A DNA stretch of 64,000 nt from Nymphaea colorata. Lineage: Eukaryota; Streptophyta; Magnoliopsida; Nymphaeales; Nymphaeaceae. Positions 17,246-41,187 of the stretch are shown piece after piece. The stretch spans positions 372,001-436,000 of the forward strand of contig NC_045143.1 of assembly GCF_008831285.2 (NCBI RefSeq), in the 5' to 3' direction. Every line of letters starts with the position of its first letter. Within the stretch, counting starts at the first letter, position 1. Made by a program: the position numbers and the translations under genes. Under the pieces are notes generated by a model, which was not told the origin of the DNA, searched no databases, and worked only from the letters and a program-made list of their open reading frames with translations.

Positions 17246-20200
17246 AATAGTAAATTTGCTAGGACCACCATACCTCATTCTTGTGGGAAGTACTCCAATG
17301 CTATTTCTAGAAATTAATGAAGCTTATGTTACGTTACAGGCATACATATTTTCAATTGAAATTGAATAAGAAGCAATAGTTTGAATCTTATTGAAATCAA
17401 GGAAACGATTTTACTGAGAATTATGGAACATATATAAAAGGTTCAAGATGTTACCATGTAACATTCTTGAATCAACAATGCAAAGGCATATCATTGAGAA
17501 ATAATATTAATGTATCCTGGTTATGATATAAGCGGAAAAATAATGTGATACATTTAGTACAATGAATTTTGCAATTCCATCAAGTTGGCACACCATGCTT
17601 TGATTTCTTTATGATATTCAAAAAACACACTTTACATTTTACAAGCTTAACACTAATTCTACGAACTTTTGAAATTTCATCGACCATCTTAGACTTTGAG
17701 ATTTATAATCGGTACATTGCAATGAACCTGAAAGTGCTGCCCTCTCAATGGAATAAAACAACTTCCTCCTAAAATTCCTCTCCAACATCAAAATTGCACT
17801 TTCTTCCGTAGAATGGTCATCTGTAGTAATAAAAGAAAAATCTTAACCGACATATATGCTACATACCCTAAAAAGTAGTGGGACATATATGATATTCTTA
17901 TCACATTTTTTTGCCAAAATTGTTTCATTTTATGATGTACTTGAAGTATTTAGCTTCTTGTCATTTAATTTTAAATTTCAGACTACCCATGTTGGCATGT
18001 AAAATGGGTATGGTGAATCCATTTGGGTCAATACGAACATGACACTAAGGAATCCTCTTAGTTGTAGTTTTAATAACTTGAGGTGTTGGATTGGTGTGTA
18101 GTAAGATATGTGCCATTACAAGTGGAGAAGATGGGAGAAATCATATGTTTCCATTTGCTACATATTCTTTATTAGTAAAAAGAAAAAAGAAATACCACAA
18201 TTTTCACATGATGAATGAATATATATTGCATTGTATTCCAGTCTCATGCTTGAATTTTAACCTTTCCGAAGGACATAATCGAATGTCTCAGTTCGCAGAC
18301 ATATTGCCGGGAAACTCGTAAGAGGGCTTTGCTCGTGAAATGACAGACCGGTGAAGCCGATGGGCAAAAAAAACAAAGGGAAAAGCAAAGCTGAAGAAGT
18401 ACGTCCATTCTACTCTACTGGTTTTGTTCTTAGTAATGATGCTTTCATTTGCAGAGTATCATCTCATTAATTTTGCAGTATTATGTTGTATAGTTGAGCA
18501 AGATTATCTAAAATGAACTTCCGTTGCATTTGCATAGATAGGCTGACACGTCCAGAAGTGGTAATGAAGAGAAGCAACCTGATGGTGATGACCCCTATAT
18601 TATGCTCTAGCAATGGAGCATGTGCAGTGATGTATTGCAGACACTAAATGGAGGAGCAAAATTTACGAAGTAGCAGCAGAAAACACTCATCAACACCCCG
18701 ATGTGATCAAATACTGCCATCGACTTGGTAAAAGTCATCTGGTAAGAATTTCATATCTCTTTCATATATATATATATATGTTTTTGGTAGGTTAAAAATA
18801 AGATCGATTCGCGTGAGCCGAATGCATGGATGGTGCAACCAACGATTGCACCCTGTGGCCATGTCGCCTGACCGCTGCATTTCCTGTGAGATGTTTGCTG
18901 AGTTATATGCAGCAGAGGAAGGGAAAGACGAGCCTCCTCAGCAGTAGATTGATCCGATGCTTTGTCATCTCATGCTGAAGAGTTTCTCAATGACGATAGA
19001 TTTGCACCGCATTTAATACGTTCCTAGTCATTTGCTTTGCTGGTTTCAGTCAAAAACCGAGAAACAGGAGTATTTCCATGAGGAAATGAACTTTGATGTG
19101 TACTGGATGTGTTTTTATTATCTTGCTCATTGACAGCGTTGCTATCAAAATTGGTTTTTCAATCGAACACGGGAAAGCCAAATGATTCAGCGAACTGGAG
19201 ATCAATCGAATAGTAATTTGTGAGTCCGATTGATTGAAAGAATGTGTTATTAATTTCAAAAAGTCAAATAAATATCAGCAAAATTAGAAAGAAAAGTGCA
19301 AAAACAATGTAAAGGTTGGAACGCTTTAAAAGAGAAGAAAATACGATCAAAATAAGGTAAATTTACGCCGCTGAAAAATAATAGCTTATATTTGTGACGA
19401 AATATGGTGAGAATAATGCGATACGTACAAAAATAATGCGATGACATACGATATGGTAGACAATTGCGATAATGGCGTGCTTTTTAGAAGACGTATATGT
19501 ACAAAAAATAATGCGATGATCATATACGATACGATTGATAAATTGCAATTTCCGCCGAATCATTATCTTTTATTATTTAACATATTTGGCTTCTTCTCGT
19601 TAACTTCAAATTTTGAACTTTCCATGTAAACATGTAATGGCTACACTTGGTTCGACAAAGAGAAATCAATTACTTTTTCTTCATATATATGTCACGGCTC
19701 TCCATATCAACTCAGCATGAACGTTCTTGGGTATTTTATAAATCTGCCTCAATTTATGAAATATTCAATTAACAAAAGTATCAAATTGTTATTGTTTCTA
19801 ATAAATCTTCCCTGTTAAAATAGAAGCAATTTCTTAGTGTAGGCAAAATGCCCCAAAATGGATCTCTTCTATCCCCTTATTAAGTTATACAAATTAGAAA
19901 CTTGTTGTTAACTTTGCAAGTACAATATTTCAAAAAGTCGGTTCATTTTTCAAATCATCTATAAAACAATTCAGCTCATTCGATCGTGAATCGGCCAAAA
20001 AGTATCTAAAACATTATTTTCCGAAAAACAAAAATATTAATAAGTTAGGAAAAACCTTAATACATTTTTTTTTTAAGAAAAGATAAAATATCACATGCAG
20101 AACCCTTGATAAGGCCGAAAACTAAGAGCCCAAATCAACCTGATTATGACGAAATCATTCAAGCTTGTCACACTGAGAGCTCAAGCCCTGAAAAAGCCCC

Positions 20201-20374
20201 ACTAACATATTAGAGCAGTGGTAGAGATAGAAATTTATAAATTGAAGCGAGAAAAACACATATATGTAGCATATATTTAATTTATGCATAAAAAAAAAAA
20301 ACAAAATAGGATGAAGGGCAAGAAAAAAGTCATTTTCATGTAAGAATTTTATCGGATCATTTTAGGCACGATTC
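17246..20374. repeat. Segmental duplication block 1
   Basis: Block 1 contains the 5' flank, pseudogene and 3' flank homologous to 22.9-27.4 kb and 34.7-38.7 kb. Anchors are GCTAGGACCAC (17258), GCTGCCCTCTCAATGG (17737), the small gene (18360), the AATAATGCGAT segment (19432) and AATGGATCTCTTCTATCCCC (19857). It lacks the ~0.6-kb insert found in blocks 2 and 3 between ACTTGGTTCGACAAAGAGA and AATCAATTACTTTTT. Confidence 0.85.
18360..18947 (+). pseudogene. Small three-exon gene, copy 1 (frameshifted)
   Basis: Exon 1 (18360-18398) encodes MGKKNKGKSKAEE exactly as in copies 2 and 3. Exon 2 (18542-18741, 200 bp) has the long form seen in the gene at 40050 (198 bp) but carries two extra bases after the DDPY codons, which bring a TAG into frame, plus a TGA just after the MEHVQ codons. 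Exon 3 (18791-18947) lacks 8 bases present in the intact copies between the CGHV and APD codons and so shifts again. Intron 2 is only 49 bp. The normal last-exon motif can still be followed across the breaks (IAPCGH, then PDRCISCEMF). It is a dead copy of a family I do not recognise. Its long exon 2 links the 100- and 150-residue forms. Confidence 0.85.
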
Positions 20375-22870
20375 TCTAAGCAATTTTCGTGTTGAGCTCG
20401 AGGTCGACTTGATTAAGGCTCGACAAACTTGTTTGAATAGAATTGATGTTCATCTTTACGTGTTAGGCACGAGTCTAACATGATATTGGCTCGACAAACT
20501 CGTTTGTATAGAAATAACATTCATTGTTTCGTGTTGATCTCAAGCTCGACTCGATTAAGGCTCTACAAACCCGTCTGAATATAATCGATATTCATTGTTT
20601 CTGTTGAGCTCAAGCTCAACTCAATTAAGGCTCGACAAACTCATTTGAAAAGAATTGATAAACGGGTTTCGTGTTGAGCTTGAGCTTGACTCGATTAAGG
20701 CTCGACAAACTCGTTTGAATAGAATTGAGTTTCATTGTTATGTGTTGAGCTCGAGTCTAACTCGATTAAGGCTCAACAAACTCGTTTGTATAGAAATAAT
20801 ATTCATTGTTTCGTATTGAGCTCGAGCTCAACTCGATTAAGGCTTGAGAAACTTGTTTGAATAGAATTGATATTCATTGTTTCTTGTTGAGATCATGCTC
20901 AACTCGATTAAGGCTCGACAAACCCATTTGAATAGAAATGATATTCATTGTTTCTTGTTGAGCTCAAACTTGACTCGATTAAGGCTCGACAAACTCGTTT
21001 GAATAGAATTGATATTCATTGTTTCTTGTTGAGTTTGAGGTCGACTCGATTAAGGCTATACAAACTCGTTTGTATAGAAATAATATTCACTGTTTCGTGT
21101 TAAACTCGAGATCGACTTGATTATGGCTCGACAAACTTTTTTGAATAGAATTGATGTTCATCATTACGTGTTGAGCTCGAGTCTAACATGATTAAGGCTC
21201 GGCAAACTCGTTTGTATAGAAATAAAATTCATTGTTTCGTGTTGAGCTCGAGCTCGACTCGATTAAGGCTCGACAAACTCGTTTGAATAGAATTGATATT
21301 CATTGTTTCTTATTGATCTCGAGCTTGACTCGATTAAGGTTCGACAAACCCGTTTGAATAGAATCGATATTCATTGTATCTTGTTAAGCTCGACTCTATT
21401 AAGGCTCGACAAACTCGTTTGAATAGAATTGATATTCATGTTTCTTGTTGAGCTTGAGCTCGACTCGATTAAGGCCCGACAAACTCTTTTGTATAAAAAT
21501 AGTATTCATCGTTTCGTGTTGAGCTCGAGTTCGACTCGATTAAGGCTCGACAAACTCGTTTGAATAAAATTGATGTTCATTGTTACGTGTTGAGATTGAG
21601 TCTAACTCGATTAAGGCTCGACAAACTCGTTTGTATGGAAATAATATTCATAGTTTCGTGTTGAGCTCGAGCACAACTCGATTAAGGCTCGACAAACTCG
21701 TTTGAATAGAATTGATATTCATTGTTTCTTGTTGAGATCATACTCAACTCGATTAAGGCTCGACAAACCCGTTTGAATAGAAATGATATTCATTGTTTCT
21801 TGTTGAGCTCAAGCTTGACTCGATTAAGGCTCGACAAATTCGTTTGAATAGAATTGATATTCATTGTTTCTTGTTGAGTTTGAGGTCGACTCGATTAAGG
21901 CTCGACAAACTCATTTGTACAGAAATAATATTCACTGTTTCGTGTTGAGCTCTAGATCGACTTGATTATGGCTCGAGAAACTTTTTTGAATAGAATTGAT
22001 GTTCATCATTACTTGTTGAGCTCGAGCCTAACATGATTAAGGATCGACAAACTCGTTTGCATAGAAATAAAATTCATTGTTTCTTGTTGAGCTCGAGCTC
22101 GACTCGATTAAGGCTCGACAAACTCGTTTGAATAGAATTGATATTCATTGTTTCTTGTTTAGCTGAAGCTCGACTCGATTAAGGCTTGACAAACTCGTTT
22201 GAATAGAATTGATATTCATTGTTTCTTGTTGAGCTTGAGCTTGACTCGATTAAGGCTGGACAAACTCGTTTGTATAAAAATAATATTCATTGTGTTGTGT
22301 TGAGCTCGACTCAATTAAGGGTCGACAAACTCGATTGAATAGAATTGATGTTTATCGGTACGTGTTGACCTCGAGTCTAACTCGATTAAGGCTCGACAAA
22401 CTTGTTTGTATAGAAATAATATTCATTGTTTCGTTTTGAGCTCGAGCTCGACTCGATTAAGGCTCGACAAACTCGTTTGAATAGAATTGATATTCATTGT
22501 TTCTTGTTGAGCTCAAGCTCGACTCGATTAAGGCTCGACAAACCCGTTTGAATAGAATTGATATTCGTTGTTTCTTGTTGATCTCAAGCTCGACTCGATT
22601 AAGGGTTGACAAACTCGTTTGAATATAATTGAGCTTGAGCTCGACGAACTAATAAACTCGTTTAAATATATCAACTCGATTAAGGACGGCTAACTCGATT
22701 AGGCCTCGAGCTTGAATCGGCGGTTACGTGTTTAGCTTGAACTCAACTCGATTATTTGAACGAGTTGACTCGTGAACTCGAGCTCGACTCGTTAAGAAAA
22801 TAATTTGGCTGGAACTTGTTCACGAGCCGAGCTTTAACGAGTCGAGCTTAAGTAGATCGACTCATTGTCC
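20375..22870. repeat. ~75-bp CTCGA-rich satellite array 1 (about 30 units)
   Basis: Units read GACTCGATTAAGGCTCGACA, then AACTCGTTTGAATAGAAT or AACTCGTTTGTATAGAAA, then ATTCATTGTTTC(T/G)TGTTGAGCTC. The two unit types alternate in longer patterns. The last part (22640-22870) is a degenerate junction that is itself repeated at 34480-34700. The arrays form the boundaries between the duplicated gene blocks. Confidence 0.93.
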
Positions 22871-24599
22871 ACCCCTAATTTCAGGTAACCTAGTTTTAGT
22901 GTGCATGAATTGAAGCATTTTCAATGGTTAACGCTGTTAATTATTCCTTCTTAGAGCCGTATATGTTATACCCAGTCCAGGAGCAATTGTTGAGTGTACA
23001 TAACATTTAATAATCTTACTAAGAAACTTATGGTGTTGCTAGGACCACGATATCTCACTCTTGTGGGAAGTACTCGAATGTTATTTCTATATATGGGTGC
23101 TTATTTTTACAGGCTTAACACACTCTACAAGCGTAACACTAAGACTTTGAGATTTTTTAGGTATAGAAATATCAGAGATAGCATAGGCACACGAATCAAG
23201 CAATGCAATTCACATGCAAGAAGTGTAATGCCATAAATGTCATCCAATTTCACATCTTTAGCAAATGATTGTAATTTTATAAGTCGTTTAGTAGCAGAGA
23301 TACTGAGTAAGTGTTTCATAAATCTGTCTTAAAAGATCAGTATGTTCATCTGACACAAGAATTATTATTTCATGAACCTATTCCAATGTTTTGGGCAGAT
23401 TCATGAGATACTCGTAATGCATCCCTACCACCAGACAACCGTTTAATGTACATATAATGATATTTGAAAAGTAATTAGGGATGCCCACTTGAAAGACAAT
23501 TGACATAAAACTAATCGGCGAAAATATAACCAAGAAATCAAAATTAAGATTGTTAGAGCCTATACATACCACAGGCTACTACTGCGTGCGTACTTTGGCT
23601 AATTAATTCACCATTTCCTGAACGTATATGGCGTTTCTGATTGTGGCTGGTGTTTAAAGGCTTCAAAAATGGATGTCCTTGAGATAGCTTCACCGAATTG
23701 GCAATTTACGATCAAACCATGATTGTGATCGTCCACTAACAGTCCCTGGTCCAAGCAGAGCGGAACAGTTCAAAATATTAACTTATAATATGTGATTAAT
23801 TTATATGCTAAATGATCATAAATACCGTCATTGAATAGATTACATTAGTCATTGTTTTGAGACATGCGCATGGCTTCGAGAGTTTGGATTTTCTCTTGTT
23901 TCTTGTGTGCCTATGCTGCCCTCTCAATGGAATAAAACAACTTCCTCCCAAAAGTCCTCAACAGTATCCAAATTGCACTATCTTTTATAGAATGATCATC
24001 AGTAGTAATAAAAAACAATCTTGACCGACATATATGATACATACCCTAAAAGAATGTGACATACATGATACTCTTACCACAATTTTTTGCCAAATTGTTT
24101 TATTTTATGATGTGCTTGAAGTATTTAGCTTCTTGTCATTTAATTTCAAATTTCAAACTTCCCTTGTCGGCATGTAAAATGGGTATAGTGGCTTCATTTG
24201 GGTGAATACGAACACGACGCGAAGGAGTCCTCTTGGTTGTAGTTTTAATAACTTGAGGTGTTGGATTGGTGCGTAGAAAGATGTCGGCCATGACAGTATA
24301 GAAAAAGAGGGTTCCCCTTGATTTGTTTTTGTTTTTGCTTTCTTTACAAGTGGAGAAGATGGGAGGAATCATGAGTTTCCATTTGCTACCTATTCTTTAT
24401 TAGGAAAAAGAAAAAAAAATACCACAATTTTCACATAATGAATGAATATATATACGTTCATTTTGTTGCATTGTATTTAAGTCTCATGCTTGAATTTTAA
24501 CCTTCTTGAAGGACATAATCGAAGGTCTAAGTTCTCAAGACATATTGCCGGGAACTCGTAAGAGGGCTTTGCTCGTGACGTGACCTACCGGTGAAGCAG

Positions 24600-26048
24600 A
24601 TGGGCAAAAAAAACAAAGGGAAAAGCAAAGCTGAAGAAGTACGTCCATTCTACTCTACTGGTTTTGTTCTTAGTAATGATGCTTTCATTTGCAGAGTATC
24701 ATCTCATTAATTTTGCAGTATTATGTTGTATAGTTGAGCAAGATTATCTAAAATGAACTTCCGTTGCATTTGCATATATAGGCTGACACATCCAGAAGTG
24801 CAAACGAAGCAGCAGAACAAACCGATGAACCGCACCCCGATTTGGTCAAATACTGCCAACGACTTGCTAAAAGTCATCGGGTAAGAATTTCATATCTCTT
24901 TTATATATATATATATATGCATCATAGTTTCAAACAACGCATTTTTTTAGAAAAAAAGATCTAAAAAAGTGATAAATTAAATTGCTGTTAAAACTTCAAA
25001 AAAGAACATGTTTGTTTGAAAAAAAATTAAGAATGAAAAAAACTGTTTTTAACCCCTTTTAAACGTTTTTTTAATTTTTTTTCTTTTTTTCATTTTTTAA
25101 TGTCAAACAGTTATTTTTATTTTTGATTTTTTTCATTGTTGCAAATCTATTTATTTTTTTATGTTTGTGTTATTAGTTTCTCATTTATTTTATTTTTCTT
25201 TATTTTTAGTTTTTCTTAATTACTGTATTTTTCATATTTTTCAAGTGCCGTGTTGCACCCGAAAAAAAAAACCTTCTCATTCAAAATTTTGAAATGTTAT
25301 TTGTTACTATGATATATACACACCAAAGGTTGGTGCTTAGGCTTGTGACTTGAGGAACAATGTAGGAAACATTTACAAGGTTCAATCGCCAATTTTAGGG
25401 TTTTTTTTTTCATTAGTTGTGGATGGTAAGTAAAGCTGAAATGCAGCTTTAGTTTAGTTCAGGGTGGAGTTGCTACTTTTTTTTTTGTCGGGTTCTAATT
25501 ATAGTTTCAAAACTTTAACATGAACTAAAATAGTCATTTTTCAAATTTATTGTATATGTTGATCCCAAAATTTTAAAATTTACATGTAAAATTTTTATTT
25601 TTTAACGCGGCCATGGCCTTTGCATATAATTTTTAAAAAATCATTTAATCTGTAAAAGAGTTTTGAAAAGTTATATGTTGATTCATGTTGAAATTTTGAA
25701 ATTGCAGCTCCACTCTCCTAATAAAAAAGATTATATCTCCACCCCCTAGGTTAGATCACCATGGTTGCACTTGAGCTCGGGATCCCAGCTCAAGCATAAT
25801 TAAATTTTCTTCTTAAACCTGTCTTCAAGTTATACTTTTAGCTCTTGTTCATATTATATATATATACATTTTTTTTTTGGTAGGTTAAAGATGAGATCGA
25901 ATCGCGTGAGCCGAATGATTGGACGGTGCGCCCTCATATTGCACCCTGTGGTCATGTCTCCATGGCGCCTGACCACTGCGTTTCCTGTGAGATGTTTGAT
26001 GAGTTATCTGTAGCAGAGGAATGGAAAAATGATTCTTCCAAGCAGTAG
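24600..26048 (+). CDS. Unrecognised small protein, copy 2 (100 aa, CGH...CxxC motif)
   Basis: Exons 24600-24638, 24782-24880 and 25884-26048, all phase 0 with GT/AG, encode 13 + 33 + 54 = 100 residues. Exon 1 is MGKKNKGKSKAEE, very basic. Exon 2 ends KYCQRLAKSHR. Exon 3 carries SREPNDWTVR, then IAPCGHVSMAPDHC, then VSCEM, so Cys, His, Cys and Cys are spaced C-x-H-x7-C-x2-C, as in a possible small zinc site (inference). There is no signal peptide or membrane segment. An AATAAA lies at 26176-26181. A TA-rich possible TATA box is near 24447. The frame is intact and the exon structure is shared with three other copies, which argues for a real gene. I do not recognise the family and assign no function. 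Confidence 0.72.
24881..25883 (+). other. ~1-kb intron 2 of copy 2, AT-rich
   Basis: Bounded by TA microsatellites at both ends; the corresponding intron in copy 1 is 49 bp and in copy 3 is 869 bp. It contains poly-T and AT-rich sequence and no coding potential that I can see. Confidence 0.7.
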
Positions 26049-26683
26049 ATTGATCCGATGCTTCTCTTCCGTTGTCATCTCATGCTGAAGACTGAAGACT
26101 TTCTCAAATTTGGTTTCTTTGCACCGCATTTAATAGATTCCTACCGAGAAACAAGTGTTTCTTTCATCATGAGGAAATAAACTTTTGGTTGTTTGCACCG
26201 CAATTAATTCATGAGCTGACTTCTGCTATATGTTGGAAATGTTTTTTTATGCTTCTTCGTCTTCCCCATTGACTGCGTTGTTGCTCTTTCAATCGAATGG
26301 GAAATCCAGACGATTCGGCGAATTGGTGATCAATCGAATCGGAATTTAAATATGTTTTTCAGTAATAGCTTATATTTGTGACGAAATATGGTGAGAATAA
26401 TGCGATACCTACAAAAATAATGCGATGACATACGATATGGTAGACAATCGCGATAATGGCGTGCTTTTTAGAAGACGTATATGTACAAAAAATAATGCGA
26501 CGATCATATACGATACGATTGATAAATTGCAATTTCCGCCGAATCATTTTCTTTTATTATTTAACATATTTGGCTTCTTCTCGTTAACTTCAAATTTTGA
26601 ACTTTCCATGTGAACATGTAATGGCTAAACTTGGTTCGACAAAGAGAAGATACCAAGCAATTCTCCTTAATGTGGTTTTAAGT

Positions 26684-26842
26684 AGACAGGTGCGATGGTT
26701 GTATAAAAAATGGCATCCACCAGAGATATCTTTCGATTGAAGCAAACTTGGTTCGACAAAGAGAAGATACCAAGGAATTCTCCTTAATGTGTTTCTGTTT
26801 TTTCCTTTTATTACAAAGTAAGAAGATGGGAGGTATATAGAT

Positions 26843-26878
<36 letters not shown>

Positions 26879-27190
26879 TTTCATTTTCTTTATATATATG
26901 CTACCAATGAAGCGTGGTTTGCAAAGCCATGAAACATATAGAAGCATGATAAAGTTGGCATATGGCAATGTTTTTTTGCCTAATGGAACATATATAAAAA
27001 GAAAATGAAAGCATATCCATATTAATACCTCCCATCTTCTTACTTTGTAATAAAAGGAAAAAAAAAATAGAAACAAATCAAGGGGAACAGATTTTGCTTC
27101 AATCGAAAGATGTCTCTCGTGGATGCCATTTTTTCTTTCCACAGTTACAAAAATAACCAATATACAACCTTGGCACCTATCTGTACGCAA
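26684..27190. repeat. Hairpin-forming inverted repeat (foldback) downstream of copy 2
   Basis: Left arm: CAGGTGCGATGGTTGTATA (26689), ATGGCATCCACCAGAGA, TACAAAGTAAGAAGATGGGAGG (partly interrupted by a short internal duplication). The right arm reads the same words in reverse complement and ends ATACAACCTTGGCACCTATCTGTA. The loop region includes a TA microsatellite. The arms match the 5' flank of the small gene at 40050 (39718-40005). Block 1 has no insert here, so it arrived after block 1 split off. Confidence 0.85.
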
Positions 27191-27430: not shown

Positions 27431-27897
27431 TGAAAGAAAAGATGCAAGACTAAGATTTTTTAAGTGGTTCGGAGTAAAATCCTAAGTCCACTGTCTCTCA
27501 CACCTATTATAGGCGATAGATGTGAGGTTCCCTTAATGTGAGAATTTATACGTGATTTGTTGAAGAGATTGTTAAACAATCCTTCCTTGATTTTTTTGTT
27601 TCTATAATCCTTTCTTTCTCTTTTGATAAAGGGACGTTGCCACTTTTCTTGCCTTTGTGATCTTGATTGATTTCTCCAGATTTAACAAGTATAGTTGCCT
27701 TTTTGCTGGATTTGTCACGATCTTCATGATTTTCTTCAATCGCCTTGTGATCTTGATTGATTTCTTCCAATCTAGCGAGTACAGTTGCCTTGTTGCTGGA
27801 TTTGTCATGATTTTCTTCATTTGTTGAACTGGCATGATCTCCACAATTTCCTTCATCCGGTGGACAGCTGTAACTATCAGCAGTTTGTGCGTTAACA
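27431..27897 (-). repeat. 3' LTR of the copia element
   Basis: 467 bp; starts TGTTAACG and ends CTTTCA on the minus strand. The RNase H reading frame runs on into it. Confidence 0.92.
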
Positions 27898-30310
27898 TCC
27901 CCCTTCAATCTCGAGCGTAGGTTGTAGCGAAGACCGAGATTGTGGCCTAGAGCTGTCAACCGATGATGGGGAAGAGGCTTTGTAAACATGTCAGCTAGCT
28001 TATGAGTGGTCGAAATATATTGAGTAACTAATGATCCAAGAGCCACCTTTTCTCTTACGAAATGAAAATCAAGCTCAATATGCTTCATCCGAGAGTGATG
28101 TGCCGTTTTGATGGTGGATTGCAGGGCAGACAGATTGTCACATAACAACAAGGGAGATTGAGAAAGAAACATTCCAAGATCTTGAAGAATAAATGTGATT
28201 CAAGTGAGCTCTGCTGTTGTCGTTGCAAGGGCATGGTATTCAGCTTCACAAGAAGATCTTGCAACACTTTGTTGTTTTTTGGATGCCCAAGAAATACAAT
28301 TGGGGCCTAGAAAAGTGCAGTAGCCAATGGTAGAACGACGAGTGGAGGGGCAGCCGGCCCAATCTGCATCAGAATAAGCTCGGATTGATAATTTTCTGGG
28401 CTTAAAGAATTGCATTCCAAGAGAGATAGTGCCCTGAATATAGCGAAGAATGCGTTTCAGTAGCTAAAAATGTCGCAGGGAAGGAACGTGCATAAATTGT
28501 GACACATAATTAACAGCATAAGTGATGTCTGGTCGAGTGAAAGTAAGATATTGCAGAGCTCCAACAAGACTGTGATACAACGTAGCATTGGGATATGCTT
28601 CTTCTTCTACAGTGTTGTTGTTATAGACATTAGTAACTATTGGTGTAACAGTTGATCGGCATGATTGCATCTGAGCACGTTCTAGGATGTCTATAGCATA
28701 GCATTGCTGATTGAGAAACAGGCCGAAAGCAGTGCGTTGGACTTGAATGCCTAAGAAGTAATGTAAGTCCCCAAGATCTGTCATAGCAAAAGTACGAGAT
28801 ACTTCATTCTGAAAGGATGCAAGAAAAGTTGGACTGTTGCCGGTGAGAATGATATCATCCACATAAAAGAGAAGAATGGTTACAGTCGATTGTTGGAGTC
28901 TCACAAATAACGATGGATCTGAAGAGCTGGCTTGAAAATTGTGAGAGAATAAAAATTGAGCAAAGTGATCATACCAAGCTCGCGGGGCCTGTTTGAGACC
29001 GTATAGAGCACGATTTAATTTGCAAACATGGTGAAGAAACCGAGCATCTTGGAAACCTGGAGGCTGCTCAATAAAAACAGTTTCAGTCAAATATCCATTC
29101 AGAAATGCATTTTTGACATCAAGTTGTTTAAGAGGCCAGCTATTCATAAGAGCAACAGAAAGTATGATCCGAATAGTTGCTGGTTTAACAACTAGTGAGA
29201 AGGTTTCAAGAAAATCCATGCCTTCAATTTGAGTATAGCCCTGTGCCACCAGCCTGGCTTTAAGTCTGTCAATGTGTCCTTCACTATTCAATTTTGTTTT
29301 GTAAACCCATCGGCTGCCAATAATATGCATGGAGGGGTCAAGAGGTACAAAGGTCCAAGTATCATTTGCAATCAAAGCTGCCATTTCATCTTCCATAGCA
29401 CGCCTCCAGCCGGGATGTTTAAGGGCAATGGAGAAATGTTTAGGTTCAGCGGGAGCAAGGGTAGTTAATATGTATTTGGGATTGGGTTTGACAATACCAT
29501 GTTGAGAATGTGTGACCATAGGGTGAGACGGTCTGGTCATGGTATTAGGTAAGGCATTAGATGGGATAGGAGAAGGAGGACTAGGTGGCGATGGTGAAGG
29601 AGGAGGTGGCGAGCTAGGTGGTGATGGTGAAGGAAGAGGTGGCGAGCTAGGTAGCGATGGTGAAGGGAGAGGTGGCGAGCTAGGTGGTAATGGTGAAGAA
29701 GAACCGGCATCTCTGGTGATGGCAGAGGTAAGGGAGAAATGGCTGGTGGTGGTAGAGTAGAGGTAGAAAGGGAAGGTTCAGGTTCACTATTGTGAAGTCT
29801 GGCAACATCATGAGGGTTCACTTCAATGAGAGCAGGCTGATTAGATTGAATAGCGACCGGAGAGAAGGACACAAGATCATGAGCAAAATTGTATTTCAGT
29901 TGTGTGCTAGCCAAACCTTGATTGAAGGGAAAACATTGTTCATCAAACACTACGTGTCTGGAAATATAGACCCGATTTGTCAAGGGATAAGGGCAGCGAT
30001 AACCTTTGTGTTGGTCACTATATCCTATGAAGACACATGGTAAAGATTTGGGTTCAAATTTGTGTTTATTGTAGCTTTTGATGTAGGGAAAACATCTACA
30101 CCCAAAAGTCCTTAGGCAAGAATAGTCGGGAGGTTTATGAAATAAGCTTTCATATGGACTTAGCATTTGGAGCGTGGATGTCGGCAACCGATTTATGAGC
30201 CACACAGCAGTAGTGAAGGCTTCCACCCAATGTTTTGCTAGAACATTACTATGGAATAGTAGAGTTAATCCAAGTTCAGTAACTGACCTGTGTTTTCGTT
30301 CCACCAACCC
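27898..30310 (-). pseudogene. copia pol remnant: integrase C-terminal part, reverse transcriptase, RNase H
   Basis: Read leftward: integrase C-terminal part from ERKHR (about 30300) through AFTTAVWLINRLP and the CVFIGY block; a Pro/His-rich linker; reverse transcriptase with RWVYKTKLN, the core LLFYVDDIILTG (about 28860) and the YFLGIQV block; RNase H with YSDADWAG and SCEAEYHAL; and the C-terminal ADMFTKPLP. Defects seen are a frame break in the linker near 29540, a TAG near 28464 (before LLKRILRY) and a TGA near 28200 (after AELT). The catalytic YVDD is intact. Retrotransposon origin is certain. Confidence 0.93.
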
Positions 30311-32221
30311 ATTCTATTCAGGTGTTTTTGGACAGGCCTTGAGATGTTTGATTCCACATTCTCTTAGATAAGAGAGAAAAGCATTGTTATTAAATTCACC
30401 ACCTTCATCACTTTGAAAAAATTTAACAGATCTTCCAAATTGTGTACTCACCATCTTATGAAACTCCATAAACTTGGCAAAAAAATCAGACTTAGATTTT
30501 AATGGGTAGATCCAAGAATAGCGAGAATGATGATCAACAAAGAGCGCATAATATCGAAACTTTTGACATGAATCAACCGGTGCTGGTCCCCAAAGATCAC
30601 AATGAATTTTTTCAAAGGATTCATAATATTCATCATCTAATGGAAAAAACGGCAAGCGTGTTGCTTTGCCCAATTGACAACTTTGACAAATGGAAAACAT
30701 AGACATTTTTGCTGCTAAATTTATTCTACCCTTGGATGACAAAAAATCAATGATCTTAGCTGATGGATGCCCGAGCCGACTGTGCCAAATCTCTGAAGTT
30801 GCTATCCTGAAACGATCAGAAAAAAATACTGCCTTTGGTCTGGTCTTGAGCACATACAAATCTCCCTTTCTAGCTCCCTTGGCAATCGTCTGATTGGTTT
30901 CCTTATCCTTAATCACAAAAGAATCAGATGTACACTCAAAGACATAGCGCATAGACGGGGTAAGCTGACTCACGGAAATAAGATTTTTCTTTATAGCAGG
31001 AACAACCAACACATTATCAAGAGTAAGAGTCGTATTTCCAAGATCAAGATTAGTAGAACCAATATGAGTTATTGGTAAATGCTTCCCGTTTCCAACCATA
31101 ACTGAATCAGTTCCATGATATTTAATGAGATGATTGAGAGTACCTGGATCATCTGTAATATGAGAAGTTGCGCCAGTGTCCGGATACCAGTCTGCATTAT
31201 TAGGATCGGCAACTTGAACAGTGAAAAAAATTTGTAGAAGATCTTTGGGTTGATACGCCTGATTGAATCTGTGGTAGCATTTGAATGTCGTGTGGTTACT
31301 CAGTCCACAAATTTGACACGCTGTTTTAACTGAAGGCTGAGTGGTACTTTGATCGGCGTTGGCTGGAGTATTGGTGGGACGAGATTGAGAAGCATGTGGA
31401 AAACCACGTCCTCGCGAGTTGAAGCGAGGGTTGCTGTTTTTCCTGGTATACTGAGCACGTCCTCTGTAGTTGTGAAAGTAGGAGGGTTGAGCTGGAACTT
31501 GCTGGCTTATGAACGCAACATTTGGATTAAGTTGAAACCCATGGATGTTTTTCATGTTGTCATGGCTTTCAAGCAGAGAGACAACATCAATATATGCAGG
31601 AATAGGAGGCCGAAGTATCGACATCATAAACGATTCATAACCTGCTCCAAGCCCATTTATGAGCCAATAAACTTTGTCTTGATCCGACAGAGGTTTCCCA
31701 ATGGCTGCCAATTCATCACATATGGTTTTGAAACTTGTTACATACTCAGTAACAGTTTTTTCTTGCTTTTGAAACGTCTGCAATTTTCTGTTTAACAGAA
31801 ATTCTCGGTCTTTGGATTCTCTAGCAAAGACCTTTGAAAGAGCAGTCCAAACTTCGGAAGAAGTTTGGAGTCCGACCACAAGACCTAGCACTTCTTCAGA
31901 TAGTGATCCAGTGATCTACCCTCTAAGGAGTCGGTCTGATTTTTTCCAGGCAAGAAATTCTGGATTTGGGACAGAACGGGCCTCGCCATTTTCAATAGTT
32001 TCAATGGTGGAGGTCGGTTTGGAGATTTGTCCTTCTATAAATCCCATCATGTCTTGGCTTTGAATGAGTCCAAGCATTTGGGTCTTCCAAAGCAAGTAAT
32101 TCTTGTGGGAGAGTTTGATAGAGACAAAATTTGCAACATTAATGTTGGAAGGATATGGATACTTAGCTGCCATGATAAGCGAAGGAGATGCTCCGGTCGA
32201 AGAGGATGCACTGGAAGCCAT
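30311..32221 (-). pseudogene. copia gag and protease-integrase remnant
   Basis: The gag start is at 32221 (MASSASSSTG). A gag core includes NYLLWKTQ; then an in-frame TAG near 31917 follows DRLLRG. The frame resumes with VWTALSKVF and YVTSFK, a CCHC zinc knuckle (CQICGLSNHTTFKC), protease DTGATSH, the GAG_pre-integrase block with IWHSRLGHP, and the integrase HHCC/DDE part with DLWGPAP and SDEGGEF. A second TAG near 30312 interrupts the integrase immediately before the conserved NGLVERKHR block. Confidence 0.93.
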
Positions 32222-32249
32222 GGAGAAAACGAAAATCCTCACGGAGATA

Positions 32250-32261
32250 GCTCTGATACCA
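32250..32261 (-). promoter_or_regulatory. Primer-binding site of the copia element
   Basis: TGGTATCAGAGC on the minus strand directly abuts the 5' LTR end (CTTTCA). It is complementary to the 3' end of initiator tRNA-Met, the usual primer of plant copia elements. Confidence 0.95.
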
Positions 32262-32739
32262 TGAAAGAAAAGATGCACGACTAAGATTTTTTAAGTGGTT
32301 CGGAGTAAAATCCTACGTCCACTGTCTCTCACACCTATTAGGCGATAGATGTGAGGTTCCCTTAATGTGAGAATTTATACATGATTTGTTGAAGAGATTG
32401 TTAAACAATCCTTCCTTGAATTTTTTGTTTCTATAATCCTTTCTTTCTCTTTTGATAAAGGGATGTTGCCACTTTTCTTGCCTTAGATTCTTGCCTTTGC
32501 GATCTTGATAGATTTCTCCAGATTTAACAAGTATAGTTGCCTTTTTGCTGGATTTGTCACGATCTTCATGATTTTTTTCAATCGCCTTGTGATCTTGATT
32601 GATTTCTTCCAATCTAGCGAGTATAGTTGCCTTGTTGGTGGATTTGTCATGATTTTCTTCATTTGTTGAACTGGCATGATCTCCACAATTTCTTTCATCC
32701 GATGGACAGCTATAACTATCAGCAGTTTATGCGTTAACA
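32262..32739 (-). repeat. 5' LTR of the copia element
   Basis: 478 bp; the pair of 27431-27897, with a 14-bp internal duplication near 32480 that the other copy lacks. Confidence 0.92.
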
Positions 32740-32882
32740 TCCCCCTTCAATTTCGAGTATAGGTTGCAGCGAAGACCGAGATTGTGGCCTAGAGCTGTCA
32801 ACCGATGATGGGGGAAGAGGCTTTGTAAACATGTCAGCTAGCTTATGAGTGGTCGAAATATATTGAGTAACTAATGATCCAA
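32740..32882 (-). mobile_element. Truncated second copia copy (3' end of pol)
   Basis: The 143 bp right of the LTR match 27898-28039: polypurine tract, then the RNase H C-terminus with THKLADMFTKPLP. So the 5' LTR of the main element also serves as the 3' LTR of a second, truncated element. At 32882 homology stops and host DNA (TATATGTTATTTACGAATAAA) resumes. Confidence 0.9.
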
Positions 32883-32989
32883 TAGCTAGCTTATATATGT
32901 TATTTACGAATAAAAAAAAAAAACAAAATAGGATGAAGGGCAAGAAAAAAGTCATTTTCATCTAAGGATTTTATCGGATCATTTTAGGC

Positions 32990-34700
32990 ACAATTCTCTA
33001 AGCAATTTTCGTGTTGAGCTCGAGTTCGACTTGATTAAGGCTCGACAAACTTGTTTGAATAGAATTGATGTTCATTTTTACGTGTTAAGCTCGAGTCTAA
33101 CATGATATTGGCTCGACAAACTCGTTTGTATAGAAATAATATTCATTGTTTCGTGTTGTTCTCAAGCTCAACTCGATTAAGGCTCTACAACCCGTTTGAA
33201 TAGAAACGAAATTCATTGTTTCTTGTTGAGCTCAAACTCGACTCAATTAAGGCTCAATAAACTCATTTGAAAAGAATTGATATTCGTAGTTTCTTGTTGA
33301 GCTTGAGCTCGATTTGATTAAGGCTCGACAAACTCGTTTGTATAAAAATAGTATTCATTGTTTCGTGTTGAGCTCGAGCTCGACTCGATTAAGGCTCGAC
33401 AAACTCGTTTAAATAGAATTGAGGTTCATTATTACGTGTTGAGCTCAAGTCTAACTCGATTAAGGCTCGACAAACTCGTTTGTATAGAAACAATATTCAT
33501 TGTTTCGTGTTCAGCTCGAGCTCAACTCGATTAAGACTTGAGAAACTTGTTTGAATAGAATTGATGTTCATTGTTTCTTCTTGAGATCATGCTCAACTCG
33601 ATTATGGCTCGACAAACCCGTTTGAATAGAATTGATATTCATTGTTTCTTGTTGAGCTCAAGCTCAACTCAATTAAGGCTCGACAAACTCGTTTGAATAG
33701 AATTGATATTCATTGTTTCTTGTTGAGTTTGAGCTCGACTCGATTAAGGCTCGACAAACTCGTTTGTATAAAAATAATATTCACTGTTTCATGTTGAGCT
33801 CGAGTCTAACTCGATTAAGACTCGACAAACTTGTTTGAATAGAATGGATGTTCATCTTTACGTGTTGAGCTCGAGTCTAACATGATTTAGGCTCGACAAA
33901 CTCGTTTGTATAGAAATAATATTCATTGTTTCGTGTTGAGCTCGAGCTCGACTCGACTGAGGCTCGACAAACTCATTTGAATAAAATTGATACTCATTGT
34001 TTCTTCTTTAGCTCAAGCTCGACTCGATTAAGGCTCGACAAACTCGTTTGAATAAAATTGATATTCATTGTTTCTTGTTGAGCTTGAGCTTGACTCGATT
34101 AAGGCTATTCAAACTCGTTTGTATAAAAATAATATTCGTTGTTTCGTGTTGAGCTCTACTCGATTAAGGCTCGACAAACTCGTTTGAATAGAATTGATGT
34201 TGATCGCTACGTGTTGACCTCGAGTCTAACTCGATTAGGGCTCGACAAACTTGTTTGTACAGAAATAATATTCATTGTTTCGTTTTGAGTTCGAGCTCGA
34301 CTCGATTAAGGCTCGACAAACTCGTTTGAATAGAATTGATATTCATTGTTTCTTGTTGAGATCAAGCTCGACTCGATTAAGGCTCAACAAACCCGTTTGA
34401 ATAGAATTGATATTCATTGTTTCTTGTTGATCTCAAGCTCGACTCGATTAAGGCTTGACAAACTCGTTTGAATAGAATTAAGCTCGAGCTCGACGAACTC
34501 ATAAACTTGTTTAAATATATCAACTCGATTAAGGACGGCTAACTCTATTAGGCCTAGAGCTTGAATCGGCAGTTACGTGTTTAGCTTCAACTCGATTATT
34601 TGAACGAGTTGACTCGTGAACTCGAGCTCGACTTGTTAAGAAAATAATTTGGCTCGAACTTGTTCACGAGCCGAGCTTTAACGAGTCGAGCTTAAGTAGA
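32990..34700. repeat. ~75-bp CTCGA-rich satellite array 2 (about 20 units)
   Basis: Same two unit types as array 1 and the same degenerate right-hand junction (34480-34700). It is shorter than array 1 by about ten units, which fits unequal exchange. Confidence 0.93.
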
Positions 34701-35654
34701 TCGACTCATTGTCCACCCCTAATTTCAGGTAACCTAGTTTTAGTGTGCATGAATTGAAGCATTTTCAATGGTTAACGCTGTTAATTATTCCTTCCTGGAG
34801 CCGTATATGTTATACCCACTCCAGGAGCAATTGTTGAGTGTACATAACATTTAATAATCTTACTAAGAAACTTATGGTGTTGCTAGGACCACGATATCTC
34901 ACTCTTGTGGGAAGTACTCGAATGTTATTTCTATATATGGGTGCTTACTTTTACAGGCTTAACACACTCTACAAGCGTAACACAAAGACTTTGAGATTTA
35001 TAATTGCAATGAACCTGAAATCGCTGCCCTCTCAATGGAATAAAACAACTTCCTCCCAAAAGTCCTCAACAGTATCCAAATTGCACTATCTTTTATAGAA
35101 TGATCATCAGCAGTAATAAAAAACAATCTTGACCGACATATATGATACATACCCTAAAAGAATGTGACATACATGATACTCTTACCGCAATTTTTTGCCA
35201 AATTGTTTTATTTTATGATGTGCTTGAAGTATTTAGCTTCTTGTCATTTAATTTCAAATTTCAAACTTCCCTTGTCGGCATGTAAAATGGTGTTGTTTTA
35301 ATAACTTGAGGTGTTGGATTGGTGCGTAGTAAGATGTTGGCCATGACAGTATAGAAAAAGAGGGTTCCCCTTGATTTGTTTTTGTTTTTGCTTTCTTTAC
35401 AAGTGGAGAAGATTGGAGGAATCATGTGTTTCCATTTGCTACATATTCTTTATTAGGAAAAAGAAAAAAAAAATACCACAATTTTCACATAATGAATGAA
35501 TATATATACGTTCATTTTATTGCATTGTATTTAAGTCTCATGCTTGAATTTTAACCTTCTTGAAGGACATAATCGAAGGTCTAAGTTCGCAAGACATATT
35601 GCCGGGGAACTCGTGAGAGGGCTTTGCTCGTGACGTGACCTACCGGTGAAGCCG

Positions 35655-36973
35655 ATGGGCAAAAAAAACAAAGGGAAAAGCAAAGCTGAAGAAGTACGTC
35701 CATTCTACTCTACTGGTTTTGTTCTTAGTAATGATGCTTTCATTTGCAGAGTATCATCTCATTAATTTTGCAGTATTATCAATGTTGTATAGTTGAGCAA
35801 GATTATCTAAAATGAACTTCCGCTGCATTTGCATATATAGGCTGACACGTCCAGAAGTGCAAACGAAGCAGCTGAACAAAACGATGAACCGCACCCCGAT
35901 GTGGTCAAATACTGCCAACGACTTGCTAAAAGTCATCGGGTAAGTCTTTTATGTATATATATATACATCATAGTTACAAACAACGCATTTTTTTAGAAAA
36001 AAAAAATTTTTTAAGTGATAAATTAAATTGCTGTTAAAACTTAAAAAAAACATGTTTTTTTTAAAAAAAAATAAGAACGAAAAAAACTGTTTTTAACCCC
36101 CTTTTTAACGTTTTTTAAATTTTTTTTCTTTTTTCATTTTTTTAATGCCAAACAATTTTTTTTATTTTTTATTTTTTCTTTGTTGAAAATCTATTTATTT
36201 TTTTTATGTTTGTGTTATTAATTCTCACTTATTTTATTTTTTTTATTTTTAGTTTTTCACACATTTAAAATTTTGAAATGTTTTTTGTGATTATGATATG
36301 TACACACCACAAGGTAGGTGCTTAGGCTTTGGGGAACAATGTGGAAAATGTTCAATTGTCAATTTGAGACTCTTTTTCATTAGTTGTTGATGGTAAGTAA
36401 AGTTGAAATGCAACTTAGGCCCAGGGCAGAATCACGATTTTTTTTTGTCTGATTCAAATTATAGTTTCAAAACTTTAACAAGAACCAAAATAGTCATTTT
36501 CCAAATTTATTTATACGTTGATCCTAAAATTTTAAAATTTACACGTAATATTTTTATTTTTTAACGCGGCCATGGCCTTTGCATGTAATTTTAAAAAAAA
36601 AATCATTTAATCTGTAAAAGTTTTTTGAAAAGTTATATTTTGATTCCACTTGAAATTTTGAAATTACAGCTCCACTCTCCTAATAAAAAAGATTATATCT
36701 CCCCTAGGTTAGACCACCATGGTTGCACTCGAGTAATTAAATTTTTTTCTTGAAGTTATACTTCCAGCTCTTGTTCATATTAATTATATATATATATATA
36801 TTTTGTAGGTTAAAGATGTGATCGAATCGCGTGAGCAGAATGATTGGACGGTGCGCCCACATATTGCACCCTGTGGTCATGTCTCCATGGCGCCTGACCG
36901 CTGCGTTTCCTGTGAGATGTTTGATGAGTTATCTGTAGCAGAGGAATGGAAAAATGATTCTTCCAAGCAGTAG
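35655..36973 (+). CDS. Unrecognised small protein, copy 3 (100 aa, CGH...CxxC motif)
   Basis: Exons 35655-35693, 35841-35939 and 36809-36973 have the same phases and lengths as copy 2 and encode 100 residues. It differs from copy 2 at a handful of residues: Q-N-D for Q-T-D and D-V-V for D-L-V in exon 2; K-D-V, R-E-Q and P-D-R-C in exon 3. The motif IAPCGHVSMAPDRC is intact. An AATAAA lies at 37101-37106. Intron 2 is 869 bp. The frame is open throughout although the introns and flanks carry indels relative to copy 2, which suggests that coding constraint has acted. No function can be assigned. Confidence 0.72.
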
Positions 36974-37604
36974 ATTGATCCGATGCTTCTCTTCCGTTGT
37001 CATCTCATGCTGAAGACTGAAGACTTTCTCAAATTTGGTTTCTTTGCACCGCATTTAATAGATTCCTACCGAGAAACAAGTGTTTCTTTCATCATGAGGA
37101 AATAAACTTTGGTTGTTTGCACCGCAATTAATTCATGAGCTGACTTCTGCTATATGTTGGAAATGTTTTTTTATGCTTCTTCGTCTTCCCCATTGACTGC
37201 GTTGTTGCTCTTTCAATCGAATGGGAAATCCAGACGATTCGGCGAATTGGTGATCAATCGAATCGGAATTTAAATATGTTTTTCAGTAATAGCTTATATT
37301 TGTGACGAAATATGGTGAGAATAATGCGATACCTACAAAAATAATGCGATGACATACGATATGGTAGACAATCGCGATAATGGCGTGCTTTTTAGAAGAC
37401 GTATATGTACAAAAAATAATGCGACGATCATATACGATACGATTGATAAATTGCAATTTCCGCCGAATCATTTTCTTTTATTATTTAACATATTTGGCTT
37501 CTTCTCGTTAACTTCAAATTTTGAACTTTCCATGTGAACATGTAATGGCTAAACTTGGTTCGACAAAGAGAAGATACCAAGGAATTCTCCTTAATGTGGT
37601 TTTA

Positions 37605-37915
37605 AGTAGACAGGTGCGATGGTGCTACCAATGAAGCGTGGTTTGCAAAGCCATGAAACATATAGAAGCCTGATAAAGTTGGCATATGGCAATGCTTTTT
37701 TGCCTAATGGAGCATATATAAAAAGAAAATGAAAGTATATCCATATGAGTACCTCCCATCTTCTTACTTTGTAATAAAAGGGAAAAAAAAAAACAGAAAC
37801 AAATCAAGGGGAACAGATTTTGCTTCAATCGAAAGATGTCTCTGGTGGATGCCATTTTTTCTTTCCAGAGTTACAAAAATAACCAATATACAACCTTGGC
37901 ACCTATCTGTACGCA
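37605..37915 (-). repeat. Inverted copy of the fourth gene's 5' flank, downstream of copy 3
   Basis: Its reverse complement follows 39718-40005 base block by base block: CAGATAGGTGCC, TGGTTATTTTTG, AATGGCATCCACC, TACAAAGTAAGAAGATGGGAGG, CCATTAGGCAAAAAAG, CCAACTTTATCA, GCAAACCACGCT. Compared with block 2, the left arm is lost except for its first ~20 bases, so no hairpin remains. Confidence 0.85.
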
Positions 37916-38694
37916 ATCAATGCGCATCGGCCTATATTTTCTGATTTTAAAGTTGTCTTTAAACTAAAAAATCAATTACTTTTTGTTCATATATATGTCA
38001 CCGCTCTCCGTATCAACTCAGCGTGAACGTTCTTGAGTATTTTATAAATCTGCCTCAATTTATGAAATATTCAATTAACAAAAGTATCAAATTGTTATTG
38101 TTTCTGATAAATCTACCCTGTTAAAATAGAAGCAGTTTGTTAGTGTAGGCAAAATGCCCCAAAATGGATCTCTTCTATCCCCTTATTAAGTTATACAAAT
38201 TAGAAACTAGTTGTTAACTTTGCAAGTACAATATTTCAAAAAGCCGGTTCATTTTTCAAATCATCTATAAAACAATTCAGCTGATTCGATCGTGAATCGG
38301 CCAAAAAGTATCTAAAACATTATTTTCCGAAAAACAGGAACATAAATATTAATTAAGTTAGGAAAAACCTTAATACTATTTTTTTTAAAGAAAAGTTAAA
38401 ATATCGCATGGAGAACCCTTGATAAGGCCGAAAACTAAGAGCCCAAATCAACCTGATTATGACGAAATCATTCAGGTTTGTCACATGGAGAGCTTAAGCC
38501 TTGAAAAAGCCCCACTGACATATTAGAGCAGTGGAAGAGCTAGAAATTCATAAATTGAAGCGAGAAAAACACATATATGTAGCATATATGTTATTTACGA
38601 ATAAAAAAAAAACAAAATAAGTTGAAGGGCAAGAAAAAAGTCATTTTCGTCTAAGGATTTTATCGGATCATTTTAGGCACAATTCTCTAAGCAA

Positions 38695-39006
38695 TTTTCG
38701 TGTTGAGCTCAAGTTCGATTTGATTAAGGCTCGACAAACTTGTTTGAATAGAATTGAAGTTCATCTTTACCTGTTATGCTCGAGTCTAACATGATATTGG
38801 CTCCACAAACTCGTTTGTATAGAAATGATATTCATTGTTTCGTGTTGATCTCGAGCTCGACTCTATTAAGGCTCTACAAACCCGTTTGAATAGAATCGAT
38901 ATTCATTGTTTCTTGAGCTCAAGCTTGACTCACTTAAGGCTCGACAAACTCCTTTGAAAAGAATTGATATTCATTGTTTCTTGTTGAACTTGAGCTCGAC
39001 TCGATT
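38695..39006. repeat. ~75-bp CTCGA-rich satellite array 3 (about 4 units)
   Basis: Four units, then an abrupt end inside a unit at GACTCGATTACAGG. It marks the right edge of the well-conserved duplication. Confidence 0.9.
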
Positions 39007-39139
39007 ACAGGATCTTCGACTTCACTTACCCATACATTTTTCCGTCAACATTCCGCCCCAGTTCCTGAAGTAAAAGGAACTGTCAACTTTATCATGGTCG
39101 GAGGAGAATTAAACAGCCCAGGTAGCAAAAATAAAATTG

Positions 39140-39530
39140 GTTAAGTATTCAGAATATCCAGCAATTTTAGTATGAAACTTATACTACAATTGATACAAGT
39201 AGAACCATCATGACTCTTGGGAGAAGCACTCGAATGTTCCTAAGATAACAATGTTTTCCAAAATGCATTAAGTATGTTTATTTTCTTAATCAACCTAATG
39301 ATGAATACAATTCCATTCAAATGAGTTTGTCGAGCACCATAAGAAATTGAATCCAAATTTATGTTCCAAATCCAGACTTGATATCCAAATCGTAAATTTG
39401 GCTCCGTTAAGAGTAACAGTTGTGTATGAGTACTCAGAATATCCAGCAATTTTAGTATGAAACTTATACTACAATTGGTAGAAGTTGAACTACCATGACT
39501 CTTGGGAGAAGCACTCGAATGTTCTTTCAA
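39140..39530. repeat. Direct duplication, 285 bp apart
   Basis: AGAATATCCAGCAATTTTAG and the following ~90 bases (ATGAAACTTATACTACAATTG, TGACTCTTGGGAGAAGCACTCGAATGTTC) occur at 39151 and again at 39436. The second half is similar to the CTTGTGGGAAGTACTCGAATG anchor of blocks 1-3. Confidence 0.85.
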
Positions 39531-39717
39531 TTAATGGAGCATACTGGTGCTTTATCTTTTCACACGTTTTTTCTACTACATTACAAACATACATATTTTT
39601 CAATTGAATAAAAAAAATACATTTTTAAATTTTTAAAAGTAAAATTTACTTTAAACCATTGAAATGATTTGCGAAGTATTATTATAAAAGTTCCGGAGAT
39701 AATAATGTTGAACCAGA

Positions 39718-40049
39718 TAGATAGGTGCGATGGTTGTATATTGGTTATTTTTGCAACCAAAGTGAAGGGAAAATGGCATCCACCCGAATATCTTTCGATT
39801 GAAGCGAAAGGGTTCCCCTTGATTTGTTTCTGTTTTTTCCTTTTTTTACAAAGTAAGAAGATGGGAGGTATTAATATATATGCTTTCATTTTCTTTATAT
39901 ATATATGCCCATTAGGCAAAAAAGTTGCCATATTGTTCACATAAAACCGCCAACTTTATCATGCATCTATATATTTCGTGTCTGTGCAAACCACGCTCGA
40001 ACATTTTGATCTTTGCGAAGGAGATCATAAGAGGTCTGGGTGTGGGAAC
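39718..40049 (+). promoter_or_regulatory. 5' flank of the fourth small gene (source-like copy of the inverted repeats)
   Basis: The DNA from GATAGGTGCGATGG to GCAAACCACGCTCGAAC lies directly upstream of the ATG at 40050. Its inverted copies are at 26684-27190 and 37605-37915. A TA-rich tract (39894-39906) may include a TATA element. Which copy is ancestral is inferred, not shown. Confidence 0.6.
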
Positions 40050-40660
40050 ATGTCGTCTGGAAGCAAGCCGCCGCCTGCCAACGAAGCCCACAGAGGTAGA
40101 AACGAAGGACAAAGCCACATGCATCGTCAAGTTGAACACGTAAGTAAGCTTTCCCTTCTTCACCTCCCCTTTTCTTCTTGTTGATTATACTGTTTCTGTT
40201 CTTAATGGAGCCATCGTTTTCATGATATAATACCTGAGAAGGTTTGCAGTATGGATTCTTTTCTGTTGTTGTATAGTTTTAGCAAGGTTGTGTGAATGAA
40301 TTTTCTTTGCATATACAGGCCGATATGTCAGGGCATGGAAATCGAGACCAGCAACGTAGTCATGACCCCTATTTTTCACTAGCCATGGAGCATATGCAGA
40401 AAAAGATTCTAGACCCTGAGTGGAGGAACTCAATATTTCAGCGTTCGTCATCCTCAGCCTCTCATCCCTCCATCCACGAAATCAATATCCACAATCGCTT
40501 TGCTAGAAGTATTGCGGTAATCATCTTATCTCTCTTTATATATATATATATTTTGTTTCTGCCGTTTGTTTTTGTACTTAGGAACTTCTTGTTCCCAAAT
40601 TTTGTTATATATTTCCATTTTATCGGCTCATTCTCTCTTTTTTTTTTTTTTTCTCTCTCC

Positions 40661-40696
<36 letters not shown>

Positions 40697-40868
40697 GTTA
40701 ACTTTAGCTTTTTAGAGTCATATGTTAGCATGATGATCATGAACAGTTAAAAAAAAAAACAAGAAAAAATTTTTGCTATCTAATATCCATTTACACTTTT
40801 TTGTGTTTGTTTTTCTTTCAACCATTTATGTGTTTGATATGGGCGGTCATGAGTGATATATATATATA

Positions 40869-40944
<76 letters not shown>

Positions 40945-41187
40945 TGTGTGGTAGATAAATATTTGTGCCTTTAGCCAAAGAGAAATTCATTGGGTTGTTG
41001 TTCCTAAAATTGATACTCGCAGCGGCTGAATAAGCTCAACTCGCGTGAGCCTAATCCGTGGACGGTGAGAGGTACCATTGCACCGTGTGGCCATATTGCC
41101 CTGTCGCCGGACCGCTGCTTTTCCTGTGAGATGATCGCCGAATTACCAACGCCAGGGTTATCGAAAGATTGGCCTGTTGAAAAGTGA
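40050..41187 (+). CDS. Unrecognised small protein, copy 4 (150 aa, diverged)
   Basis: Exons 40050-40139, 40319-40516 and 41023-41187, all phase 0, encode 30 + 66 + 54 = 150 residues. Exon 1 (MSSGSKPPPANEAHRG) is unlike the MGKKNK exon of the other copies. Exon 2 has the long form, with HDPYFSLAMEHMQKKILD, corresponding to the broken exon 2 of the pseudogene at 18360. Exon 3 keeps SREPNPWTVR, IAPCGHIALSPDRC and FSCEM and is exactly 54 residues, as in copies 2 and 3. The protein is rich in His, Ser and Arg, with no membrane segment. Upstream DNA is unrelated to the promoter of copies 1-3. It is probably a functional older member; function unknown. Confidence 0.72.
40660..40697. repeat. Pyrimidine/(AT)n microsatellite in intron 2 of copy 4
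   Basis: A CT-rich tract followed by an AT run. Confidence 0.9.
40856..40950. repeat. (AT)n(GA)n(GT)n microsatellite in intron 2 of copy 4
   Basis: A TA run, then about 70 bases of uninterrupted GA, then a short GT run. It is the longest GA tract in the window. Confidence 0.95.

Follow-up and report, generated by a model that had tools for sequence, protein, structure and literature searches.

A tandem cluster of small three-exon genes in Nymphaea colorata with a candidate Cys/His metal site in the last exon

RING fingers bind two metals through eight ligands in a cross-brace, with the spacing C-x-H-x2-C-x2-C in the middle of the motif, and the CCHC zinc knuckle of retroelements has the pattern C-x2-C-x4-H-x4-C. 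Orphan tandem clusters that include pseudogenes are common in plant genomes. The locus described here, in Nymphaea colorata, is a cluster of four gene copies (A to D) with a candidate compact Cys/His site in the last exon. The best explanation, to which we give about an even chance, is a small tandemly duplicated plant gene family, probably restricted to its lineage, in which copy D is probably a working gene, copy A is dead and copies B and C are either decaying or retained for their last exon only.

Setting and gene models of the cluster

The analysed window is a 64-kb stretch at positions 372001-436000 of contig C6 (NC_045143.1); the assembly has 407,766,735 bases in 783 contigs. The published Nymphaea colorata genome is described, in the available excerpt of its report (PMC7015852), as 409 Mb in 1,429 contigs and 804 scaffolds. 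To the left of the cluster, a Pfam search of reading frames found a protein kinase gene on the minus strand: the frame at 9251-9814 is above the cut-off of PK_Tyr_Ser-Thr (32.6 bits versus 23.1), and a second kinase frame at 11012-11386 is under it (14.9 bits). To the right, at about 44-49 kb, lies a minus-strand gene that, by its motifs, we take to be a triosephosphate isomerase. In the whole 64-kb window nothing matched Rfam at gathering score, and no tRNA was found. The features of the cluster are, in window positions:

18360..18949, plus strand: copy A, read as a pseudogene, with a D-type long exon 2 that has stops and frameshifts
20385-22632: 71-bp tandem array 3' of A, 31.9 copies
24600..26048, plus strand: copy B, exons 24600-24638, 24782-24880 and 25884-26048, 100 aa
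25884..26048, plus strand: last exon of B with the Cys/His pattern, the sequence used for the AlphaFold2 model
27431..32886, minus strand: Copia-type LTR retrotransposon between B and C, LTRs at 27431-28043 and 32262-32886
33007-34479: 71-bp tandem array 3' of B, 20.8 copies
35655..36973, plus strand: copy C, exons 35655-35693, 35841-35939 and 36809-36973, 100 aa, near-duplicate of B
36809..36973, plus strand: last exon of C with the Cys/His pattern, from the rebuilt gene model and the three-row alignment
38703-38983: 71-bp tandem array 3' of C, 4.0 copies
39719..39997, plus strand: upstream region of D, 279 bp, with inverted copies 3' of B and C
40050..41187, plus strand: copy D, exons 40050-40139, 40319-40516 and 41023-41187, 150 aa, the best candidate for a working gene
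41023..41187, plus strand: last exon of D with C22-G-H24-x7-C32-x2-C35, from the rebuilt gene model and the alignment

The anatomy and the copy number of the cluster are matters of observation. Rebuilt, B, C and D form open three-exon models, with GT-AG sites and phase 0 at all six introns and a length divisible by three in all nine exons; with similarity between the copies far above chance, the four clustered copies of the preliminary description are real. The last exon has 54 codons and a stop in each of the three intact copies, the length that had been claimed. Phase 0 had been assigned to all four copies; it applies to B, C and D but not to A, because A has stops and frameshifts in exon 2, an intron 2 shortened to a 49-nt remnant and an exon 3 with 8 nt deleted. 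Judged by these lesions, copy A is a dead gene.

The two LTRs of the Copia element are 94.6% identical, and no matching 5-bp target duplication was seen at its edges. At the insertion point, the host unit is about 420-430 bp shorter than units A and C. Outside the cluster, tandem arrays that overlap one another (292-, 172- and 436-bp periods) cover 60260-63416, and an inverted repeat at 55144-55544 has 184-nt arms that are 98% complementary and a 33-nt loop. The region 55130-55560 folds as a single long hairpin (-376.6 kcal/mol, z -41); a search with the hairpin arm matched only both arms and a 57-nt stretch on another contig (C13:1057883-1057940), and the hairpin could be a young small-RNA locus.

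Exons were searched in six frames against the 407.8-Mb assembly, where only the best candidates were scored and very distant paralogues could escape. The last exon of B (E <= 0.001) and that of D (E <= 10) each returned five pieces, all from the four cluster copies, with B exon 3 finding D exon 3 at E 1.7e-12 and D exon 3 finding those of B and C at E 1.9e-12 and 7.9e-12; exon 2 of D (E <= 10) matched itself and copy A only. A search with the 652-bp 3' flank of B gave seven matches including itself, six in the cluster and one on contig C3 (101-bp span). Since the exon matches are confined to the cluster, the copies are a local tandem family and not the product of a dispersed transposon. A transposon-encoded peptide, which the preliminary description had considered as a contrary explanation, was rejected for the same lack of dispersed copies of exon 3 and of D exon 2.

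In Pfam, the proteins of B and D matched no family at E 10, and at E 1 neither their third exons nor exon 2 of D did; no family matched among the NCBIfam profiles. Three matches were dismissed as chance level: a PHROG match to D exon 2 (E 0.34), a PDB match of D to the chlorophyll a-b binding protein Lhca5 (best E 0.034) and a PDB match of the exon-3 profile to alpha-galactosidase A (E 0.16). Pattern searches gave 38 matches in prokaryote contigs and 19 in viral contigs, none of which was confirmed. The last exon had been assigned to no named family, and it still has no credible relative in Pfam, NCBIfam, PHROGs, PDB sequences, prokaryote contigs or viral contigs, the collections to which the word unnamed applies here. 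Literature searches found no occurrence of the motif strings of D, and none that joins orphan genes, tandem duplication and Nymphaea.

Duplication and remodelling of the copies

All four copies can be aligned from the 5' flank to the last exon, and A, B and C would be derived from a D-like gene through local duplication. Exon 2 is 200 nt long in A and 198 nt in D, and 99 nt in both B and C; as the loss in B and C leaves 99 nt, their frame stays open. Exon 1 differs too. The start ATG of D reads ATA in A, B and C, and the frame of D is closed by stops in all three; instead, these copies have a downstream ATG in a frame other than that of D, which joins exon 2 in phase 0. As the frames differ, exon 1 of D and exon 1 of the other copies encode different protein stretches. 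The direction of this frame change, judged from the four copies alone, is tentative.

Copies B and C resemble each other in patches. They are identical at 142 of 143 positions of intron 1 and 599 of 599 positions of the 3' flank (about 600 bp), and at 767 of 863 positions of intron 2 and 364 of 398 positions of the 5' flank, so that parts of the noncoding DNA match as closely as the exons. The patchwork is probably gene conversion, or else stepwise duplication, and because it resembles either, exon identity between B and C is not readable as selection. From the sequences, the similarity of B and C can be explained by recent duplication together with probable gene conversion.

Inverted copies of the upstream region of D lie at 26911-27182 (3' of B) and 37635-37908 (3' of C) and are 80-82% identical to it. 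They point to a past inverted duplication in the cluster.

B and C appear as remodelled, truncated duplicates and are putative genes. One reading is that B, C and D all work, as an expanding family in which the last exon is the selected module and the N-terminus is free to vary. The open frames and kept splice sites of B and C, the reduction of exon 2 with the frame preserved and the new exon-1 ATG in a frame that matches exon 2 agree with this, but copy A is dead, the differences between A and B are spread over the codon positions without bias, as in neutral sequence (4, 6, 6), three of the four exon-3 differences between B and C alter the protein, and the identity of their exons is matched by that of their noncoding 3' flank; we consider it unlikely. 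In the preferred reading, D is the probable working gene, and B and C, with only half of exon 2 left and exon 1 in a frame other than that of D, are decaying or kept for the last-exon domain only.

Constraint on the last exon

Among the stretches tested between D and the other copies, the last-exon core alone shows amino-acid constraint, with omega about 0.4 and p about 0.01-0.05. For codons 1-41 of the last exon, D versus B and C gives dN 0.32-0.34 and dS 0.69-0.72; for codons 7-41, dN/dS is 0.22/0.68 (B-D) and 0.23/0.73 (C-D), the core ranges 7-41 and 7-37 having been picked after the alignment was seen. Maximum likelihood on the 41 codons of B, C and D has its peak at omega about 0.4 (lnL -303.3 versus -305.3 at omega 1), and with masked A added lnL is -348.6 versus -352.1 at omega 1; the doubled differences of about 4 and 7 were taken as p about 0.05 and 0.01, values that are approximate because kappa lay at the lower grid edge (0.8) for most omega values.

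Randomisation gives a similar picture. Between D and B, the 21 base changes in codons 7-37 alter 9 amino acids, where 13.8 such changes are expected (P 0.005; D versus C, P 0.002), and P is 0.007 and 0.002 for codons 1-41 of D versus B and C, respectively. Over all 54 codons, done for D-B only, P is 0.047. The final 18 codons of exon 2, again for D-B only, have 14 changes versus 14.4 expected (P 0.53): conservation had been described as concentrated in the last exon, and the contrast between its core and the end of exon 2 bears this out. Fisher's test, applied to whole-number counts, yields 0.095 over codons 1-41 and 0.025 over codons 7-41. The comparison of D with B and C, one pair of lineages over 41 codons, shows moderate constraint on the last-exon core at the level of sequence.

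Two other measures speak against constraint. Differences between B and D by codon position are 16, 7 and 14, first positions changing as often as third positions. Nucleotide identity of D and B over the whole of exon 3 (105/165) is not above that of intron 1 (86/134 aligned positions, 54 gap columns), and neither is the identity of A and D over exon 2 (117/195). B and C differ by five nonsynonymous and three synonymous changes, and their dN/dS was rejected as evidence of selection, having no power at such numbers and being subject to probable gene conversion. Of the dN/dS comparisons that the preliminary description had proposed, those of D with B and C gave the values below 1 stated above.

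Could the whole cluster, D included, be non-functional, made of gene fragments or chance open frames spread by local duplication? One copy in four is clearly dead, the flanks contain tandem repeats and a Copia element, the libraries searched hold no credible relatives, the end of exon 2 is unconstrained between D and B, exon 2 of A and D is no more alike than intron 1, and exon 1 cannot be compared at the protein level. The constraint on the last-exon core argues against it, and so does the fact that D keeps three exons and canonical sites at a synonymous distance from B/C of about 0.7 per site, measured over the last exon. We regard a wholly non-functional cluster as improbable and prefer D as the probable working gene.

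The candidate metal site and comparison with known systems

The last exons of B, C and D align over 57 columns, of which 24 are invariant, including C22-G-H24, C32 and C35. Invariant in all three rows are S-R-E, N, W-T-V-R, I-A-P-C-G-H, P-D and C-x-S-C-E-M. The preliminary description had listed SREPNxWTVR for all three intact copies; this is correct for two of them, but copy C has SREQNDWTVR, with Q in place of the P. Its other two motifs, IAPCGH and the P-D/C-x-S-C-E-M segment, proved invariant. C22, H24, C32 and C35 are the only invariant Cys and His residues of exon 3 and make the pattern C-x-H-x7-C-x2-C in all three intact copies, a plausible candidate for a compact metal site. The AlphaFold2 model of B exon 3 is weak (mean pLDDT 61, pTM 0.28); it places strands of two residues at 18-19 and 25-26, one on each side of C22-G-H24, and a helix at 33-51.

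The preferred reading would work as follows. D is probably a working gene for a 150-residue protein with the last exon as a compact domain; C22 and H24, placed on a short turn, and C32 and C35, where the helix begins, could together coordinate a single metal ion, most probably zinc, and the surface of the domain could bind a partner protein or nucleic acid. We infer metal binding, fold, partner binding and the expression of D. A more far-reaching version, which we think doubtful, is a family of early-diverging angiosperms with an undescribed mini metal-binding domain, C-x-H-x7-C-x2-C with S-R-E-x-N-x-W-T-V-R upstream, whose tandem daughters kept the domain while the N-terminus was replaced via the exon-1 frame switch and exon 2 was cut. 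Should D prove to be expressed, with the Cys/His residues conserved in relatives, the locus would offer a new zinc domain of small size and a clear example of a tandem gene that acquired a new N-terminus by switching its start codon and frame; otherwise it is one more ordinary orphan cluster that includes pseudogenes. Neither CHCC nor CXHX appears as a term in the available part of a review on zinc-finger NMR (PMC7614390).

Among described domains, the RING finger (C3HC4/C3H2C3) is similar in that the last exon has P-C-G-H followed by a C-x2-C pair and, in the weak model, the helix begins at the second pair. It differs in having eight ligands and H-x2-C, compared to four candidate ligands and H-x7-C in the cluster. 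With no Pfam profile match and only C22, H24, C32 and C35 invariant, the last exon was not classed as a RING. Descent by divergence from a named plant family, for example as a degenerate RING or another zinc finger, would explain why P-C-G-H and C-x2-C resemble half of a RING, and would suit the turn and helix of the weak model; with the B and D proteins and last exons unmatched in Pfam, PDB sequence matches at chance level only and the small number and spacing of the ligands, it is very unlikely.

The CCHC knuckle is likewise a small four-ligand Cys/His pattern, and a Copia element lies inside the cluster. However, the cluster exons have a different order and spacing in all three intact copies, lie outside the Copia element and on the opposite strand, and are matched only in the cluster; membership of the knuckle family was rejected on the pattern.

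In overall form the cluster is like the generally known orphan tandem clusters of plants: small genes with few exons, local duplication, intact and dead copies side by side, and no relatives in the libraries searched. The one clear difference is the change of exon-1 frame between D and copies A, B and C.
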